Shown in pieces: positions 4,705-13,770 of a stretch of DNA of 64,000 nt; within the stretch, counting starts at the first letter, position 1, and the number at the start of each line of letters is the position of its first letter. The DNA is from Phyllobacterium zundukense (GTDB taxonomy: Bacteria > Pseudomonadota > Alphaproteobacteria > Rhizobiales > Rhizobiaceae). Under the pieces are notes generated by a model, which ran no database searches, was not told the DNA's origin, and was given only the letters and a program-made list of their open reading frames with translations. The stretch lies in contig NZ_CP017942.1 of the NCBI RefSeq assembly GCF_002764115.1, forward strand, positions 319,001 through 383,000, in the 5' to 3' direction. Made by a program: the position numbers and the translations under genes.

Positions 4705-4841
4705 CGCACTGTAGAAGCGGCGGCAGGATCGCTTCAGGTGTCGCAGCTTGCCAGCTTGCCGCCACAGGTTCATTGTACCTGGACCAGGCTCCGCTGCTAG
4801 ATATTAGATCGCACATCGGGGCTCCTGTGAGGTCGTTATCG

Positions 4842-7800
4842 ATGAACTGCACCAGTTGCGGTTTTGAAGTTCAGAGCCATTTTGCGTTTTGCCCAAAATG
4901 CGGCGCGAAACAGCCGAGTGCATGCCCCGGTTGTGGGTATTTGTGTCCACCGGACTTCGCATTTTGCCCACAATGTGGCACCCGGATCACCGGCGCACCA
5001 AACACCAGCAATCAGTCGAAACCAGGTTCCGGAATATTTTCGAGTGAGGCACCCCGCGCGCCCTCTATGCCAAGCGTAGCACCGCACCGGCCTGGGCTCG
5101 AGCCCGAGGCAGACCGGCGCACCGTGACCATATTGTTTGCCGACCTCTGTGGCTACACCACCCTGAGTGAACAGCTTGATCCGGAAGTTATGCAAACGCT
5201 CCAGAATGAACTGTTCGAGGAACTGACAGCGGCGGTACAGAGCTTCGGAGGATTTGTCGACAAATTCATCGGTGATGCCCTGCTCGCCTTGTTTGGCGCA
5301 CCGGTTGCACACGAAGACGACCCGGAGAGAGCTCTTCGCGCGGCCTTGGACATGGTCAACCGAACAGCGTGCGTGGGAGAGCGCTGGCAAGCGCGCACCG
5401 GTTCACCTCTGGTGCTGCACGTCGGCATCAACACTGGACCTGTCGTTACCGGCAAATTCGGTGCAGGCAAAAGCAAATCCTATTCAGTAACGGGCGATAC
5501 CGTGAACAGCGCACAACGGCTGCAGTCGATGGCGAAACCTGGCGAGGTCCTTGTTGGCCCGCTCACATACCGCCTCACCCGGCACATTTTCTCTTATGAA
5601 TCCCTCGGCGACCAGGCATTGCGTGGCAAAGCTGGCAGCGTACCGGTACACCGCCTGGTCGGTCCACTTGAGGCGCCGCGCGGTGCACGAGGCCTTGAAA
5701 CACTTGGCCTCAGCGCACCGTTCATCGGGCGGGACGCTGAGCTTGATCGTATGCTTGGCTGTCTTGATCTGACATGTAGTGGCACAGCCCAGCTGGTGCG
5801 ACTAATTGGCGAGGCTGGTATTGGGAAATCACGTCTTACCGAGGAATTTCTTGCTCGCGCCAGTGAAGACGTCCGTTTTGCCGAGCTCGTGGTTCGCCGA
5901 GCCTACTGTTCACCCCTAGGTGAACAGTCCTATGGTACTCTCGCCGCTGTATTACGAAGCGCTTACGAAATCGATCCAGCCGATTCATCGGACAAGACGA
6001 AGGATTTGCTCGCAGCAGGCCTTCGTGGGCTTGGTCTTTCACCTGAAGAGATTAATCAATTAACGCCACTTCTGTTCTATGTTCTCGGTCTTGATGATCC
6101 TGATGACATGCTCCGGCATGTCGAGCCAGAGCAGTTGCGCCGGCAAATTTTCTACGCGGTTCGTACGATCTTCGAACGGCGTCTGACGCGATCTCCCCTA
6201 TTGCTTGTTGTCGAAGATCTCCACTGGGCCGACACTGCCTCGCTTGAAGCGTTGCGCTTTTTGATGGACCGGATGGAACGCAGCCGCTTCATGCTCCTGA
6301 CAACACACCGATCTGCATTCAATACCGAGCTGCTTGATTCAAGCCGAACCAGCCTAACGGTATTGCGCCTCGCGCCATTGCCCGACAGCGACGGGCAAAA
6401 GCTGCTCGCGGCATTTTTCGGCTTCGACCGGAGCAGATTGTCGGTCGATCTGTGCAGCAGGATTCTCGAGCGCGCAAGCGGCAATCCCCTGTTTATCGAG
6501 GAAATCGTGCGCGGTCTCATCGAAATCGGCGCTCTGCAACGGGACGGCCCGCACTGGCGGATTGCAGCGGAGGACGCCGCTGCCGGCATTCCGGTGAATA
6601 TACAGGCACTGCTGCTCGCCCGGATGGACAGGTTATCGCCGGAAGTCCGCAGATTGGCCCAGGAGGCTGCGGTCATCGGACCCCGCTTCAACGCAACGCT
6701 ATTGAAGGCCATTTCGGCGGATCCGGCAAATGTCGAAACCGGGCTCGATCTCTTGTGTGACGCCGAGATTATCGAGGAAGTCACTGGGTCGAGTTCTGTC
6801 TCATCGCAAGATTATCGTTTCATGCAGACTCTGCTTCACGCCGTGATCTATGACAATCTCCTGATGCAAAGGCGTATCGATATGCACGGCCAGATCGGTA
6901 CTGCGATGGAGCGTTTGCACGGGCAAGATCCTGAACATCTCGAAGATTTAGCACTGCTGGGTCATCATTTCAGCCAAACCGCGGCCAGAGCCAAGGGCGC
7001 ACGCTATCTGATGGCGGCCGGCGACAGGGCTCGTAAGACATACGCCAACGACGACGCTCTCCGTCTTTACCGGCAGGCACTGGAGGCCTTGTCAGGCGGC
7101 GACCAGCAAGGGCAGGAATGGCTGCTGCTATGTGAACGAATTGCCGATCTCTGCGGCCCAACCGGTCAGCGTGAAACGGCCAAAGAACATTACTTGAAAG
7201 TCTTGAAGGAATATCGTGCCGCCGATAACCGCGCCGCTACGGCAAGGATACTCCGCAAGGTCGGGCGTATGCTTTGGGACTCAGGTAAACGCGACCAAGC
7301 AGAGGCACGCTACGCTGAGGCGACAACGCTGCTCGAAGGAATAGACCCGCTGATCGAGCACGCGCATCTCGCGCAGGAACGCGGCCATCTTGCATTTCGC
7401 ACGGGTGATCAGGCTGCTGCTGTGCGATGGGCGGACGAAGCACTGAACTATGCTCGAATTCTGGCGCCTGATAGCGGTGAAGAGGGCGAGAGCGAGGCCG
7501 CTCGGGTCACTGCCGAGGCGCTCAATACGAAAGGAGTGGCGCTGGCACGACTTGGACGGAGCGAGGAGGCAGTGCGCGAGGTCGAGCGGAGCGTCAAGGT
7601 CGCCGAAGGTGCAGACCTCCTCAACGTCGCCTGTCGCGGCTACACCAATCTTGGTGTGCTCTACACCATCGTCAATCCCGAGCTGGCGATCCAGGTGTGC
7701 CGACGCGGATTGAAAGTGGCACGCCACATTGGCGATCTTGGTTTTCAGGCGCGCCTTCTTTCCAATCTCGCGGTCGCCTACTGTACCTTCACGGACCGAT

Positions 7801-8141
7801 GCGCGAGCGAAGGCGTTCCCGCCGCCGAGAAGGCCATAGAGATCGATCGTGCGCTGGACCAGCGCGATCATTTACCCGTACCGCTCATTGTCCTCGGGCA
7901 AATCTATCAATGCCATGGTCAACCGGAACTGGCCCTCGGTTGTTATAACGAAGCACTCGATATGGCGCAGGAAACGCGCGAACCACAACTGCTGTTTCCG
8001 TGCTATGATGGTCTGGCGACGCTTAATCTCGACCTCGATGATATGGCCGAGGCGGAACGATACTTTGCCATGGCGCAAGAGGTCTGCGCAAAGCACGGTC
8101 TCGATCCAGAGGCGCTTGTTGTATTGCCATTTCTTGACTAG
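4842..8141 (+). CDS. Zinc-ribbon / class III nucleotide cyclase / AAA-type ATPase / TPR regulator
   Basis: This large cytoplasmic signalling protein has about 1099 aa. I place the start at 4842, where TGAGG lies nine bases upstream and MNCTSCGF opens directly into the zinc ribbons; an in-frame start at 4773 adds a non-conserved leader. Order: two CxxC ribbon pairs (about 1-60); a class III adenylate/guanylate cyclase domain (about 90-275) with metal-binding FADLCGYT and FIGDALLALFG; a STAND-like ATPase with P-loop GEAGIGKS and Walker B LLVVEDLHWAD; then TPR-like helices to the end. Family members are predicted to make cyclic nucleotide under control of the ATPase and TPR sensor. It appears monocistronic, with a thioredoxin-fold gene 21 bases downstream. 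Confidence 0.9.
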   Translation: MNCTSCGFEVQSHFAFCPKCGAKQPSACPGCGYLCPPDFAFCPQCGTRITGAPNTSNQSKPGSGIFSSEAPRAPSMPSVAPHRPGLEPEADRRTVTILFADLCGYTTLSEQLDPEVMQTLQNELFEELTAAVQSFGGFVDKFIGDALLALFGAPVAHEDDPERALRAALDMVNRTACVGERWQARTGSPLVLHVGINTGPVVTGKFGAGKSKSYSVTGDTVNSAQRLQSMAKPGEVLVGPLTYRLTRHIFSYESLGDQALRGKAGSVPVHRLVGPLEAPRGARGLETLGLSAPFIGRDAELDRMLGCLDLTCSGTAQLVRLIGEAGIGKSRLTEEFLARASEDVRFAELVVRRAYCSPLGEQSYGTLAAVLRSAYEIDPADSSDKTKDLLAAGLRGLGLSPEEINQLTPLLFYVLGLDDPDDMLRHVEPEQLRRQIFYAVRTIFERRLTRSPLLLVVEDLHWADTASLEALRFLMDRMERSRFMLLTTHRSAFNTELLDSSRTSLTVLRLAPLPDSDGQKLLAAFFGFDRSRLSVDLCSRILERASGNPLFIEEIVRGLIEIGALQRDGPHWRIAAEDAAAGIPVNIQALLLARMDRLSPEVRRLAQEAAVIGPRFNATLLKAISADPANVETGLDLLCDAEIIEEVTGSSSVSSQDYRFMQTLLHAVIYDNLLMQRRIDMHGQIGTAMERLHGQDPEHLEDLALLGHHFSQTAARAKGARYLMAAGDRARKTYANDDALRLYRQALEALSGGDQQGQEWLLLCERIADLCGPTGQRETAKEHYLKVLKEYRAADNRAATARILRKVGRMLWDSGKRDQAEARYAEATTLLEGIDPLIEHAHLAQERGHLAFRTGDQAAAVRWADEALNYARILAPDSGEEGESEAARVTAEALNTKGVALARLGRSEEAVREVERSVKVAEGADLLNVACRGYTNLGVLYTIVNPELAIQVCRRGLKVARHIGDLGFQARLLSNLAVAYCTFTDRCASEGVPAAEKAIEIDRALDQRDHLPVPLIVLGQIYQCHGQPELALGCYNEALDMAQETREPQLLFPCYDGLATLNLDLDDMAEAERYFAMAQEVCAKHGLDPEALVVLPFLD

Positions 8142-8162: not shown

Positions 8163-8843
8163 ATGTCGGAACCTCACACTGAAAGACCGTTACAGCCGGG
8201 CGACCGGGCACCGAATGTTGTGCTCGATGCAATCACACGCCAAGGCAAGGTCGCCATTGATGACTTTCGCGGCCACAAGCCCGTATTGGTCGGTTTGTTT
8301 CGCGGTTTGCATTGTGCGTTCTGCAGGCGCCAGATTGCAGCCATGTCGCAACTTGAAAGCGCCTTGCGTGAGAAGGGCATCGACAGCTTGACTGTCGTCA
8401 ACACGCCCATCGAACGTGCCCGCTTATATTTCCGTTACCACCCACTGCCCAACCTGTTGGCAGCATCCGATCCCGAACGGGTCTCCCATCGCGCATTTGG
8501 CTTGCCCAAACTCGAATTCACTGAAACTGAAACCAACTGGCCTTACAAGCTCAGTAACGATGCGGTGATGTCCATGCGGATCGATCTGCCGGGAGAATTG
8601 CCTGAACCTATGGACCCAAGAGCAGCTACAACTTATCTCGATGAAGTGGATGGCTATGAATTTACCGAAGCCGACAAGCAGATGATTGCGACCGGTGAGG
8701 GTCAGCTTGTCGGTCAGTTCCTCCTCGACCGCGACGGTGTTGTGCGCTGGAGCTTCACCGAAGTTCCCGAAGGAGGCCGCTATATGTTCGGGGTGCCAAC
8801 GCCACAGGAGTTGATGTCTGCTGCGTCGCAGGTTGCAGGGTAG
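8163..8843 (+). CDS. AhpC/TSA-type thioredoxin-fold protein
   Basis: This 226 aa protein has the peroxiredoxin/thioredoxin fold. The N-terminus carries GDRAPNVVLDAITRQG, typical of AhpC/TSA proteins, followed by a CxxC motif in LHCAFCRRQ (Cys51 and Cys54). The CxxC resembles thioredoxin more than a classical peroxiredoxin PxxxTxxC site, so a thiol-disulfide or redoxin role is likelier than proven peroxidase activity. There is no signal peptide, so it is cytoplasmic. A GAGGATG ribosome site precedes the ATG. It lies 21 bases after the cyclase gene and may be cotranscribed with it. Confidence 0.8.
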   Translation: MSEPHTERPLQPGDRAPNVVLDAITRQGKVAIDDFRGHKPVLVGLFRGLHCAFCRRQIAAMSQLESALREKGIDSLTVVNTPIERARLYFRYHPLPNLLAASDPERVSHRAFGLPKLEFTETETNWPYKLSNDAVMSMRIDLPGELPEPMDPRAATTYLDEVDGYEFTEADKQMIATGEGQLVGQFLLDRDGVVRWSFTEVPEGGRYMFGVPTPQELMSAASQVAG

Positions 8844-9206: not shown

Positions 9207-10604
9207 GTGTTAAGTAGTAACGTTTCGCTGATTGAATCGTCGATTGCACCCGATAGCAGCCCCATAGCAGAGAAGCACACGGCAATCGATCATTGTCATG
9301 CTGTGTGGCATCAATTTGGACTGCGGATTCCGCGGGTAGCGCTTTTTCCTGACGCAGTAGTTCCTCACTCGCGCTACCTTCGCGAAGTTTTTGATGTTGT
9401 CGACAATAGCGATGTTGATGCAGTCTTGCTCACCAACGACAAGCAGCTGTTCGCGCTGGATAAGTTTCGCAGCGCGCGCGACCTGTTCCTCGTCCCGGTT
9501 ATAAATGTGACCGGGAAATCCAGTCCCGCTGCGGATGTCGCTTTCAATTTGAGAAATCCACAATCCTGGGTCGAAACAGCGGCTCGCATCAAGCAGTTCT
9601 CCGACCGCAGAAGCCGCTTGTCATACCGGTTTCTCTCGCCAAGCTCGCCGGCCGTGCGAATGCTCGCCTACCTGTTTGTATCAGGCGATGACCTCACTCC
9701 GATCAGGCAGCCGGACTCTCCATTTTATTTTGCATATAGAGCGTTTCCAAATACCCGTTCGACCATGTTGATCGCTGAGGCCCTCGCCGATAAGGGGTGG
9801 CTTGAGCGCAACTTTTTTGACCGGCATCACGAATGCGCCGCATGCCATTCTCATCGTTTGATTGTCAGGGAGGAATGTCCCGCTTGCCATTCGCCACATC
9901 TATCGGAAACGGATCTGATCCACCACTATAGTTGCGCGCAGCTGAGCCCAGAAGCTGATTTTCGCCGGGGGACCGCGTTGGTTTGTCCGAAATGCAGCAA
10001 GCAACTGCGTCACTACGGCAAAGACTATGACAAACCAGGGCGCGTTGAGATCTGCGGTCGATGTCAGAAGACTACCTCTGAGCCAGCCATCGGCTTTGTA
10101 TGCCAGGATTGTGGAATGCGGGTGGATGGGGACGCGGTCAACGTATCGGACGTTTTCTCTTATTCCCTTTCCGCTCAAGCTGGCGCCTTGTTAGCTAACG
10201 ATACTGTCGAAGTCGAGTATTTCCCGAGCGCTCTGTTGCAGAATCTTCCAGAGGAACTCCAAAGGAGGGTCCGGCAGCTCTCCAACCCCAAGGAAAGCGC
10301 ATCGGATTTCGTCGTCGCTGAGATACAATACGGTGCGCGCGAACTCTTATTGGAGAAGAAAGGTGAAGCCGCATTTTATTCAATGCGAAAGCTCTTAGCC
10401 GACAATCTTCAGGGCATTCTGGGAGATAATGCGTCCGTTCACTCGTCCAATGATCGCGATTATGTGCTTTTTCTCGGTGTTACCGAAAGCAGCCTCAGCG
10501 CCTACGCGCAGAAGATACTGGATCACTCCGAATCCATCTTGTTCGACAAACTGTACCCGACATTGCTTGTTTTGTGGGCGGGTCGTGAAGGAACGAGCCG
10601 GTGA
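9207..10604 (+). CDS. TackOD1 zinc-ribbon protein with receiver-like N-terminus and degenerate GGDEF-like C-terminus
   Basis: This 465 aa protein starts at a GTG with a GGAAAGG site. Residues 1-190 resemble a degenerate response-regulator fold. Residues 195-305 hold eleven Cys, ten of them in CxxC pairs (210/213, 224/227, 260/263, 283/286, 299/302), plus LIHHYSC and LRHYGKDYDKPG. That pattern matches the TackOD1 (Thaumarchaeal output domain 1) metal-binding domain. Residues 345-460 have the spacing of a GGDEF domain (a basic Gly-rich helix, then RDYVLFLGV where GGDEFLIL would be), but the catalytic GGDEF is missing; this is my inference. Its stop overlaps the glycosyltransferase start, suggesting it regulates or scaffolds that enzyme. 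There is no signal peptide. Confidence 0.75.
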   Translation: MLSSNVSLIESSIAPDSSPIAEKHTAIDHCHAVWHQFGLRIPRVALFPDAVVPHSRYLREVFDVVDNSDVDAVLLTNDKQLFALDKFRSARDLFLVPVINVTGKSSPAADVAFNLRNPQSWVETAARIKQFSDRRSRLSYRFLSPSSPAVRMLAYLFVSGDDLTPIRQPDSPFYFAYRAFPNTRSTMLIAEALADKGWLERNFFDRHHECAACHSHRLIVREECPACHSPHLSETDLIHHYSCAQLSPEADFRRGTALVCPKCSKQLRHYGKDYDKPGRVEICGRCQKTTSEPAIGFVCQDCGMRVDGDAVNVSDVFSYSLSAQAGALLANDTVEVEYFPSALLQNLPEELQRRVRQLSNPKESASDFVVAEIQYGARELLLEKKGEAAFYSMRKLLADNLQGILGDNASVHSSNDRDYVLFLGVTESSLSAYAQKILDHSESILFDKLYPTLLVLWAGREGTSR

Positions 10605-11881
10605 GCGATCTCGACATCGGTTTGTCGTTTCTTCTAACCCAAACTGTCGCAAGTTTAGTCGCGATTTTTTGGTACACACTCATCTTTGACATTCCAAGAT
10701 ACGTCCTACCATTTGCGTTTACCGCAGTCACCATGCGCAACCGTTCCTCAAACAACGCAACAGCGCCAACCTTGCGAGAGATCGCACCGGCAGGAGTGAG
10801 CATTGTTCTCATTGGCCATAACGAAGCGGATTCCATCGGGGCGTGCGTTCGCTCGTTAAAGGAACAGTCCTTTTCGGATTTTGAGATTGTTATCGTCAGC
10901 GACGGCTCGACGGATGGAATGAGCAAGGTCGCACAGGAAATGGTGCGCAACGGCCTGGCGACCTGCATTCTTACTACGGGCATCAGGGGTGGAAAGGCGA
11001 GCGGAACCAATCTCGCATGCGAAATCGCGCGAGGAGACATCATCATCAACATCGACTGCGATTGTTCGTTTGACCGGTTTGCGATTGAACATCTCTTGAT
11101 ACCATTCGAGGACGAAAGAGTTGGCGCGGCCTGCGGTGACATCGCACCGCGCAACGCCCATGCAAGTGTTATCTCACAATTTCAGGAAATCGAATATCTG
11201 GAGTCGATTTCGGTCGGCAAGCGCTTCAGTGCAGCGATTAACCAAGTGACTTGTGCGTCCGGTGCTTTCAGCGCGTTTCGCAGAACAGCCTTGCGCCAAG
11301 TGGGCGGTCTGGACGTTGGCGGGGGTGAGGATCTCGATGTTACGTTGCGGCTGCGGCGAGCAGGCTGGCGCATTGCCTATGTGCCGGATGCTGTGTGCTA
11401 TACGGATGTCCCCACCACTGTTTACAACTACATCCGGCAACGCCTGCGCTGGGAGCGCGATGCTGTATGGATCCGGTTTCGGAAACACCGCCGGCTGCTC
11501 AATCCCTTCGATCCGAAGTTTCGACTCGCCGAAGCGTTACATCAGTGCGATTTCGTGCTGTTCAATATTGTCGGGACCTGCATATTCCCCGTTTACGTTG
11601 CCTGGCTTGCAATCAACTTTGGTTCACTCGCTATTCCAATCCTTATTGCGATGCAGATCGCGCTTCTGATTCTGGACGCTCTGATGCTCGCGTTAGCGTG
11701 CTGGACAACGGGCCGCCCCAATTTCTGGCGCAACCTGGCGTTCCTTCCCGGCTACTCAATCTTCATGTCCTATGTGATGCGAGGCGTGCGCCTGATGGCT
11801 TACGTCGATGAGTGGTTTCTTTCAGGATCCCACAGGGACAACTACACCCCGATTAAAGTTCGCCACGAACGCGCCTGGTGA
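10601..11881 (+). CDS. Processive family 2 glycosyltransferase (cellulose synthase/Alg8-like)
   Basis: This 426 aa membrane glycosyltransferase starts at a GTG that overlaps the upstream stop. An N-terminal membrane segment (about 8-40) is followed by a GT2 catalytic domain with SDGST (Asp101), DCD (152-154), GGED (241-244) and QRLRW (280-284). The last is the QxxRW signature of processive polymer synthases. Further membrane segments lie at about 310-400. It should polymerise a nucleotide-sugar-derived glycan and export it through its own channel. It sits between the TackOD1 protein and an HlyD-like protein, an arrangement like Alg8/Alg44 or other synthase-dependent systems. The sugar is unknown. 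Confidence 0.88.
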   Translation: MSDLDIGLSFLLTQTVASLVAIFWYTLIFDIPRYVLPFAFTAVTMRNRSSNNATAPTLREIAPAGVSIVLIGHNEADSIGACVRSLKEQSFSDFEIVIVSDGSTDGMSKVAQEMVRNGLATCILTTGIRGGKASGTNLACEIARGDIIINIDCDCSFDRFAIEHLLIPFEDERVGAACGDIAPRNAHASVISQFQEIEYLESISVGKRFSAAINQVTCASGAFSAFRRTALRQVGGLDVGGGEDLDVTLRLRRAGWRIAYVPDAVCYTDVPTTVYNYIRQRLRWERDAVWIRFRKHRRLLNPFDPKFRLAEALHQCDFVLFNIVGTCIFPVYVAWLAINFGSLAIPILIAMQIALLILDALMLALACWTTGRPNFWRNLAFLPGYSIFMSYVMRGVRLMAYVDEWFLSGSHRDNYTPIKVRHERAW

Positions 11882-11890
11882 GGTCTTCAA

Positions 11891-12901
11891 ATGAAATATA
11901 TCCGGAAACGTCCCCGCATAGATAACCTCGACAGGCAACAGAGATCGGCCTCCGGTCGACTTGGCAGATCAGTGTACCTCGCGTTTCTGGCGGGGCTTGT
12001 GCTCTTGCTCGGCAACTACCTGGTCGGCGGGATGTTCATATTGTCGGCGGATGGCATCGTGCTCAATCAGCGGTTCGTCGTTTCTGCCAGTTATCCGGCG
12101 ACAATCACCAAGGTGCTGGTCAGCGAAGGCGACAGTGTCACCGAAGGAACGCCGCTCGTTGAACTCGAATCTTTCGAGATGGTGAAGGAGATCGCAGACC
12201 TTTCCGTGCGCACAAGTGAACTTGCAGTACGGGAAGGCGAGTTGCGCGGGAAGGCCTCGACGATTACGGAGCTCTTGCCCCTCGCACAGCGCTCTGCACG
12301 TGAAAGCAACGATGCCGTCGCTCGACTTGACCGGGTTTCTGCACGAGGGCTCGTTCTCGGGACAAGGCGAGATGAGGCGCTGACAGCCAACTTTCAAGCC
12401 GCAGAACGTTACACTGAACTGACTGCGCAAGCCGGGGTCACTGAAAATGAGCTTCGGGTCGTAGAAGAGTCCAGGCAAGTGGCTAGCAATGCGGTCAGCA
12501 AAATGAACGCAATTTATAATCAGGGCAAGATACGGGCAGTGGTTGCAGGGGTCGTTGGCTCCAAAATTCCTGTCCCGGGACAGGTCGTGCGCTTGGGCGA
12601 CGAATTGCTGCAGATCAATGGAGGGAAGGCCTACCTGTTTGCCTATCTGCCCGATCAATATCTGTTTTCGATCACTAAAGGTATGAAAGTTGAGGTTCGC
12701 GGCGGAAATGAGAGTTCAATAGGAACAATTGAAAAGGTATTGCCGATTGCGGATGCTCTGCCGGCAGAATTTCAGAATATGCTGCGGCCGCGTGATCGAT
12801 CTCGCCTGATCCGCATTGCACTTCCCGAAAAGCATCCCTTTGCGGTGACCCAGAAGGTGGTCATTCGCGGCTGCATAGCTGGCTGGTGCTGGGTGCGGTG
12901 A
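11891..12901 (+). CDS. HlyD/Alg44-like membrane-fusion protein
   Basis: This 336 aa protein begins nine bases after the glycosyltransferase. A short cytoplasmic tail is followed by one membrane segment (about 27-50) and a biotinyl-lipoyl-like half (PATITKVLVSEGDSVTEGT). A helical hairpin region (about 85-185) and a second lipoyl half (RAVVAGVVGSKIPVPGQVV) follow. This is the periplasmic-adaptor architecture of HlyD and of the co-polymerase part of Alg44. It probably couples the glycosyltransferase to export across the periplasm. No PilZ domain is present, unlike Alg44. The C-terminus ends GCIAGWCWVR. Confidence 0.82.
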   Translation: MKYIRKRPRIDNLDRQQRSASGRLGRSVYLAFLAGLVLLLGNYLVGGMFILSADGIVLNQRFVVSASYPATITKVLVSEGDSVTEGTPLVELESFEMVKEIADLSVRTSELAVREGELRGKASTITELLPLAQRSARESNDAVARLDRVSARGLVLGTRRDEALTANFQAAERYTELTAQAGVTENELRVVEESRQVASNAVSKMNAIYNQGKIRAVVAGVVGSKIPVPGQVVRLGDELLQINGGKAYLFAYLPDQYLFSITKGMKVEVRGGNESSIGTIEKVLPIADALPAEFQNMLRPRDRSRLIRIALPEKHPFAVTQKVVIRGCIAGWCWVR

Positions 12902-13110: not shown

Positions 13111-13770
13111 ATGGGCCTTCGTATCAACGATACTGCACCGGATTTCACCGCTGAAACAACGCAGGGCGAAATCCATTTCCATGATTGGATCAAGGACAGC
13201 TATGCAGTGCTGTTCAGTCATCCAAAGAACTTTACCCCGGTCTGCACGACCGAGCTCGGATATATGGCCGGTCTTGCCCCGGAATTCGCAAAACGAAATG
13301 CCAAAATCATTGGCATTTCCGTCGATCCCGTTGAAAGCCATGACAAATGGAAGGCGGACATCAAGACGGCAACCGGTCATGAGGTCGACTATCCCCTCAT
13401 CGGTGACCGTGACCTGAAGATTGCAAAACTTTACGACATGCTGCCGGCTGAGGCAGGCGACACGTCGGAAGGGCGCACGCCCGCCGACAACGCCACCGTG
13501 CGTTCTGTCTTCATTATCGGGCCCGACAAGAAGGTGAAACTTACCATCACCTACCCGATGACTACAGGCCGCAATTTCGATGAGATTCTACGTGCCATTG
13601 ACAGCATTCAACTGACCGCAAAACATCAGGTCGCAACGCCTGCCCAATGGAAACAGGGAGAGGATGTCATCATCACGGCTGCTGTATCGGACGAGGATGC
13701 CACACAACGCTTCGGTGGGTTCGAGCGTGTGCTGCCGTATCTCCGTAAAACCAAGCAACCGGCGAACTGA
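13111..13770 (+). CDS. 1-Cys peroxiredoxin (Prx6 family)
   Basis: This 219 aa thiol peroxidase carries the Prx6-type active site NFTPVCTTELG with the peroxidatic Cys at about residue 45. The Prx6 C-terminal extension (GEDVIITAAVSDEDA) is also present. The length matches the 1-Cys class (about 220). It reduces peroxides in the cytoplasm. A GGAG site lies before the ATG. It appears to be a single-gene unit: a 210-base gap lies upstream, and a weak 8-bp hairpin at 13796-13829 lies downstream. Confidence 0.93.
   Translation: MGLRINDTAPDFTAETTQGEIHFHDWIKDSYAVLFSHPKNFTPVCTTELGYMAGLAPEFAKRNAKIIGISVDPVESHDKWKADIKTATGHEVDYPLIGDRDLKIAKLYDMLPAEAGDTSEGRTPADNATVRSVFIIGPDKKVKLTITYPMTTGRNFDEILRAIDSIQLTAKHQVATPAQWKQGEDVIITAAVSDEDATQRFGGFERVLPYLRKTKQPAN

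Follow-up and report, generated by a model that had tools for sequence, protein, structure and literature searches.

A TackOD1-glycosyltransferase-HlyD operon of Phyllobacterium zundukense as a probable distant relative of the Shewanella Mxd system

Three genes of Phyllobacterium zundukense, encoding a TackOD1 zinc-ribbon protein, a family 2 glycosyltransferase (GT2) and an HlyD-type adaptor, lie in a stretch of 64,000 nucleotides of contig NZ_CP017942.1 (positions 319,001 to 383,000 of the forward strand; assembly GCF_002764115.1), referred to here as the window. They are a conserved module, and we consider the operon, with a probability of about 0.7, to be a distant alphaproteobacterial Mxd-type polysaccharide machine in which the signal input has changed; its function in this host would be that of Mxd. 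Its probable role is the synthesis and export of a surface sugar polymer. A preliminary description, made from the sequence alone, had proposed a new secretion system unless the operon matched a characterised one, and the operon does match mxdABC of Shewanella oneidensis, which has been characterised genetically. The kind of system is not new; the domain model of the window protein is new, as are the loss of the I-site and the gain of a receiver between branches of the family.

Relationship to the Mxd operon

On plasmids of Plesiomonas and Aeromonas, annotation names the TackOD1 gene a diguanylate cyclase, and the proteins have a Pfam GGDEF match behind TackOD1 (E 1.4e-10 and 1.6e-8), which led to the comparison with mxdABCD of S. 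oneidensis. When 129 Shewanella-group genomes were searched with a Shewanella TackOD1 protein, 19 matched (E 0.001), three of these matches (G1284, G1330 and G941) being confined to the GGDEF-like tail. Family PF03882 was used only to pick an Enterobacterales-like genome as a search centre. Five Pmxd primers printed in PMC3691769 have priming parts that, in one genome, fall exactly upstream of the TackOD1 gene, which identifies this gene as mxdA; one of the five (15 bases) recurs at a single further locus among the 196 scanned.

MxdA contains both TackOD1 (E 4.7e-71) and GGDEF (E 1.1e-4). The window operon and that of S. oneidensis MR-1 (mxdA is SO4180) correspond one to one and in the same order, with TackOD1 and a GGDEF-like fold in A, a GT2 in B and a membrane-fusion protein in C, and in both the genes are coupled on one strand with an A/B overlap of four bases. 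Identities are 24% over 325 amino acids (aa) for window protein A and MxdA (E 4e-24), 35% over 250 aa for the GT2 and MxdB (E 5e-44) and 22% for the HlyD protein and MxdC (BLASTP E 7e-5), the last pair reaching 99.1% probability over 291 columns (E 2e-18) when profiles were compared with hhalign. Homology of the operon to Mxd is indicated by TackOD1, the shared order of the genes, and the pairwise as well as the profile matches, taken together. Scans of the MR-1 locus for open reading frames (ORFs) and Pfam domains did not reveal an mxdD gene, and none was seen in the window operon in the comparison with Mxd.

According to the available text of PMC3691769, mxdA and mxdB mutants of S. oneidensis do not aggregate, and mxdB mutants are stuck at a monolayer, without three-dimensional biofilm. 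MxdA is reported, in the portion of PMC7666153 available, to be an effector of cyclic di-GMP (c-di-GMP) that binds CheY3 and PdgA. The biofilm phenotype and the binding of c-di-GMP and CheY are published for Mxd only. The link between TackOD1 and Mxd was not found in the literature searched, which mostly excluded subscription papers, so that it may be printed elsewhere; the one paper there that names TackOD1, the survey PMC5847659, mentions neither mxd nor Shewanella. Within the same literature there was no occurrence of 'thaumarchaeal output domain' and no paper joining glycosyltransferase, HlyD, zinc ribbon, response regulator and exopolysaccharide. A term search of the accessible part of the paper on the scv locus of Vibrio parahaemolyticus (PMC8941931) returned no HlyD, diguanylate, mxd, GGDEF or 'glycosyltransferase family 2'.

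In Aeromonas caviae (L078:7707-13529), the Mxd-like operon is carried by a plasmid of 29 kb, typed as mobilizable, and a TolC gene separates its GT2 and HlyD genes. In an Alisedimentitalea plasmid (L080:6947-11601), the MxdA homologue is split into two adjacent ORFs (TackOD1, then GGDEF-like) and galE lies behind; the 62% identity of its GT2 to MxdB, in an alphaproteobacterial host, suggests acquisition by transfer.

Conservation and layout of the module

Among 99 genomes of relatives, PF18551 matched in 17, above the cut-off in 16. The search yielded 20 loci, of which 16 rows are the long form (15 places, one in an interrupted gene), with a GT2 adjoining in all 16. Three of the remaining four are a short form, and the fourth, L017, was a chance TackOD1 match in an ORF that we take to be ribonucleotide reductase-like and was dropped. 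The closest named TackOD1 relative is that of P. brassicacearum (87%).

When a single genome was scanned for each species, 56 TackOD1 loci were obtained, from Alpha- and Gammaproteobacteria. On the same strand downstream, a GT2 was found in 52 and an HlyD protein in 50; these counts come from tblastn, because some ORFs had been fused or missed by the first gene caller. Contig ends account for four of the six misses, L069 and L074 stopping 5 bases or less from the match and L054 and L055 being too short for HlyD. L071 and L076 have neither gene, although 3.9 and 7 kb of sequence are available downstream, and the order in L058 is TackOD1-HlyD-GT2. Gene-order conservation outside this genome, a check that the preliminary description had proposed, is therefore far-reaching, and the arrangement is not due to chance. 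A search of 72,556 plasmid records with the window HlyD protein gave nine matches (E up to 1e-3); eight are in records that also carry the TackOD1-GT2 module, and the ninth is in a short form. At this sensitivity, the adaptor thus occurs in plasmid records only with one or other of these systems.

In the short form, the order is GT2-HlyD-zinc ribbon, and the ribbon ORF (81-109 aa) holds the central TackOD1 part only. It was found in three genomes of the same genus (G008, G014 and G019) and in Sinorhizobium medicae (Table 1). The zinc ribbon is the regulator part retained in every form met here and is, for that reason, the best candidate for contact with the synthase.

Other arrangements were also seen. 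An interrupted TackOD1 gene (two ORFs) lies upstream of the GT2-HlyD pair in L033 and L059/L089, and in a Microbulbifer contig (L054:4017-9240) a GT2-HlyD pair lies upstream of a second TackOD1-GT2 pair. Genes for a UDP-GlcNAc dehydrogenase (TviB-like) and a TviC/GalE-like epimerase directly behind the operon (L065:10432-11727, L070:11650-12660) are a possible clue to the sugars of the polymer. A haloarchaeal gene with a TackOD1-like stretch is present in a Haladaptatus plasmid (L085), where no glycosyltransferase is annotated adjacent.

In the window, the tight coupling of the TackOD1, QxxRW glycosyltransferase and HlyD genes at 9207-12901, as first described, is confirmed by the ORFs, the GTGA overlap, the gap of 9 bases between genes 2 and 3 (11882-11890) and the Pfam matches. 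An NCBIfam scan supports the GT2 and the HlyD-type adaptor, and the TackOD1 call comes from Pfam only. This is the single TackOD1 match in the host genome. Scans for promoters (3 promoter-like sites vs 2.8 expected) and terminators (7 terminator-like sites vs 4.3 expected) were uninformative. Peroxiredoxin-type genes flank the operon on both sides (8163-8843 and 13111-13770), and 4773-8141 encodes a large protein that combines a double zinc ribbon in its N-terminal part with a class III cyclase domain, an AAA ATPase and TPR repeats.

Table 1. Features of the window operon, and short-form loci
Feature	Position	Strand	Remarks
TackOD1 gene (MxdA-like regulator)	9207..10604	+	465 aa, GTG start; PF18551 E 2.3e-46
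Receiver-like (pseudo-REC) domain of gene 1, about residues 40-130	9324..9596	+	AlphaFold2 model, structural alignments
TackOD1 zinc-ribbon domain, residues 146-321	9642..10169	+	CxxC five times, HxxC once
Degenerate GGDEF-fold domain, residues 342-465	10230..10601	+	Without GGDEF motif or RxxD I-site
GTGA stop/start overlap, genes 1 and 2	10601..10604	+	
Membrane-integrated GT2 synthase (MxdB-like)	10601..11881	+	426 aa, GTG start; Pfam GT2 E 3.9e-28
QRLRW (QxxRW) motif, GT2 residues 280-284	11438..11452	+	
HlyD-type membrane-fusion/adaptor protein (MxdC-like)	11891..12901	+	336 aa, ATG start; HlyD_3 E 1e-12
Short form, L086	2733-5456		Position in locus
Short form, L087			
Short form, L088			
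Short form, L205	3007-5598		Position in locus

Signal sites in the TackOD1 protein

Two parts of gene 1, a C-terminal GGDEF-fold domain and an N-terminal receiver-like domain, were absent from the preliminary description. As modelled, the window protein consists of a pseudo-receiver, the zinc ribbon and a dead GGDEF fold, in that order. Structural alignments of the model to PleD, DgcR and WspR cover the receiver (REC) plus GGDEF. Foldseek on the whole model gave one match below E 0.001, a GGDEF protein, and the GGDEF reading rests on the VIA alignments; that other folds are missing from the Foldseek and VIA lists carries no meaning. There was no Pfam REC match in the window protein, up to E 1. 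Its TackOD1 Cys pattern fits the description in the available part of PMC5847659.

Signal sites were compared in an alignment of 267 proteins drawn from family-seeded searches and from lists covering 120 of 399 and 120 of 158 matches, and hence a non-random sample. Twelve of the 56 loci (L026, L032, L033, L039, L045, L048, L054, L059, L064, L068, L074 and L076), whose gene call did not pass the filter on length (400-700 aa) or on E-value, are left out of it, as are proteins of <400 aa and the receiver-bearing L081 and L082. The GGDEF motif (GG[D/E]EF) of an active diguanylate cyclase is found in none of the 267, the window protein and MxdA included. The naming of many TackOD1 proteins as diguanylate cyclases (list P0049-P0168, mainly Vibrionaceae) is therefore likely to be a misannotation. 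The RxxD I-site is kept in 174 of 178 proteins on the MxdA side and in only 12 of 89 on the window side, where 30 of 89 have a fused receiver domain; in the Rhizobiales-rich branch that holds the window protein it is kept in 3 of 76. Unlike MxdA, which keeps RxxD, the window protein has GDNA at this position and so lacks the site, and it likewise lacks a fused receiver. A CheY-like gene lies upstream of a receiver-less TackOD1 gene in L057 (6331-6738), and histidine kinase or HPt genes are found around receiver-bearing ones in L046 (9400-10593), L081 and L082.

These losses bear on a rival explanation, namely that the module is the same but the window protein still senses c-di-GMP via another surface of its GGDEF-like domain, nothing having been swapped. 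The fold is retained, MxdA itself is a reported binder (PMC7666153, as far as available), and the 20 GGDEF matches above cut-off in the host genome indicate that c-di-GMP is probably made there. Loss of the GGDEF motif does not decide the matter, being common to MxdA and all the others, but the rarity of RxxD in the window's branch and its absence from the window protein make this explanation unlikely.

Zinc ribbons often bind nucleic acid, and the TackOD1 protein could regulate the operon by binding DNA or RNA instead of regulating the synthase by contact. Archaeal REC-TackOD1 and REC-winged helix-turn-helix-TackOD1 proteins (PMC5847659, in part) would fit such a role. However, the protein is coupled to GT2 throughout two classes, in the short form the ribbon is the third gene of the operon, and binding of MxdA to both CheY3 and c-di-GMP has been reported (PMC7666153). 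We give this explanation as little credence as the previous one.

In the Mxd-type machine that we favour, the inner-membrane GT2 would polymerise a UDP-sugar and pass the chain through its own transmembrane bundle, which in the model resembles that of hyaluronan synthase. The HlyD-type adaptor would cross the periplasm and join GT2 to a TolC-type outer-membrane channel, presumably encoded elsewhere in the genome. The TackOD1 protein would be the cytoplasmic switch, its receiver-like head and catalytically dead GGDEF-like tail flanking a zinc ribbon that probably touches the synthase. In Shewanella, the input would be c-di-GMP, probably at the conserved I-site, together with phospho-CheY3. In the window's branch, where the I-site is mostly lost, a fused receiver may often take over; because the window protein has neither, its input would most likely come from a separate protein, for example a CheY-like one, that acts on the pseudo-receiver. 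What this analysis itself shows is the order of the genes, their homology, the domains and the loss of motifs; polymer synthesis and its gating in this organism are our inference.

More tentatively, and at somewhat less than even odds, TackOD1 may be a dedicated clutch for one family of hyaluronan synthase-like synthases, with its trigger exchanged between lineages: Gammaproteobacteria would use c-di-GMP at the I-site of a dead cyclase, many Alphaproteobacteria a fused phospho-receiver, the window's lineage a separate partner and the short operons the bare zinc ribbon alone. Because fused domains often reflect contacts between separate proteins, the receivers fused in Alphaproteobacteria agree with the contact of CheY3 and MxdA already in print. 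The binding partner of TackOD1, and the way in which a synthase comes to answer another signal, become directly testable in two non-pathogens, and the findings point to a widespread polysaccharide.

The synthase and comparison with known systems

In a 28-row GT2 alignment that includes the window protein, the Q, R, R and W of QxxRW and D152 and D154 of the DCD motif are invariant. The GT2 model superposes near full length on hyaluronan synthases, membrane helices included, and is, as modelled, like hyaluronan and cellulose synthases. These features, and the lack of aggregation and three-dimensional biofilm in mxdB mutants (PMC3691769, available sections), make it still less likely that the GT2 is no polymerase and makes a glycolipid or short glycan, exported with the help of the HlyD protein.

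The GT2 tree does not by itself establish common descent of the window-type and MxdB synthases apart from PgaC and NodC. Window-type proteins group with MxdB with support of 94/89 when NodC is left out; with NodC, support is only 60/59 and monophyly is not resolved, and without BcsA and BgsA, PgaC is drawn with the MxdB group. TackOD1 is not known to occur in NodC, PgaC or bgsBA systems. Kinship of the operon with these rather than with Mxd, to which that last tree, the PgaC and NodC model matches and the GT and HlyD-like pair of rhizobial bgsBA (PMC9495663, in part) might point, is very improbable, given BLASTP scores of the GT2 of 146 bits for MxdB, 110 for PgaC, 49 for BcsA and 35 for BgsA, and model scores far under the cut-offs.

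Several known systems were rejected as identities. The PNAG (poly-N-acetylglucosamine) synthase PgaC/IcaA (TIGR03937) scored 144.7 bits against a cut-off of 422.3, NodC (TIGR04242) 99.3 against 550, and the CelA model of Bcs cellulose synthase 32.9 against 699. PilZ had no match at E 0.01 in any of the three window proteins, which also argues against Bcs and, for the HlyD protein, Alg8/Alg44, the latter being judged without an Alg8 sequence comparison. For bgsBA, order and length differ, and the HlyD-BgsB match has E 0.06.

The bgsBA genes for mixed-linkage beta-glucan in Sinorhizobium/Rhizobium resemble the window operon in pairing a glycosyltransferase with an HlyD-like protein (PMC9495663, available part). 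Unlike the window, the glycosyltransferase is CesA-like, has 664 aa and binds c-di-GMP via its own C-terminus, the HlyD-like gene comes first, and no TackOD1 gene is annotated adjacent.

Alg8/Alg44 and Bcs, like the window operon, combine an inner-membrane GT2 with a periplasmic partner, and their synthases are PilZ-controlled. The first suggestion, that the zinc ribbon replaces PilZ or BcsB, stands in so far as a TackOD1 protein sits in the regulator's place, but is too simple, because gene 1 encodes a degenerate response-regulator/GGDEF protein with an inserted zinc ribbon and because a PilZ-free pair, bgsBA, was already on record. The response-regulator diguanylate cyclases PleD, WspR and DgcR align structurally with this protein in the receiver-like head and GGDEF-fold tail, and differ from the window family, in which a zinc ribbon is inserted and the GGDEF motif is missing.

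Archaeal TackOD1 response regulators (PF18551) share the same 11-Cys domain, often with REC, but are reported near type IV pilus loci, with no glycosyltransferase partner mentioned in the accessible part of PMC5847659. The same source describes, in methanogens, REC fused directly to a BcsA-like glycosyltransferase (PF13641), a fusion that offers a separate, independent example of how a synthase can come under phospho-control.

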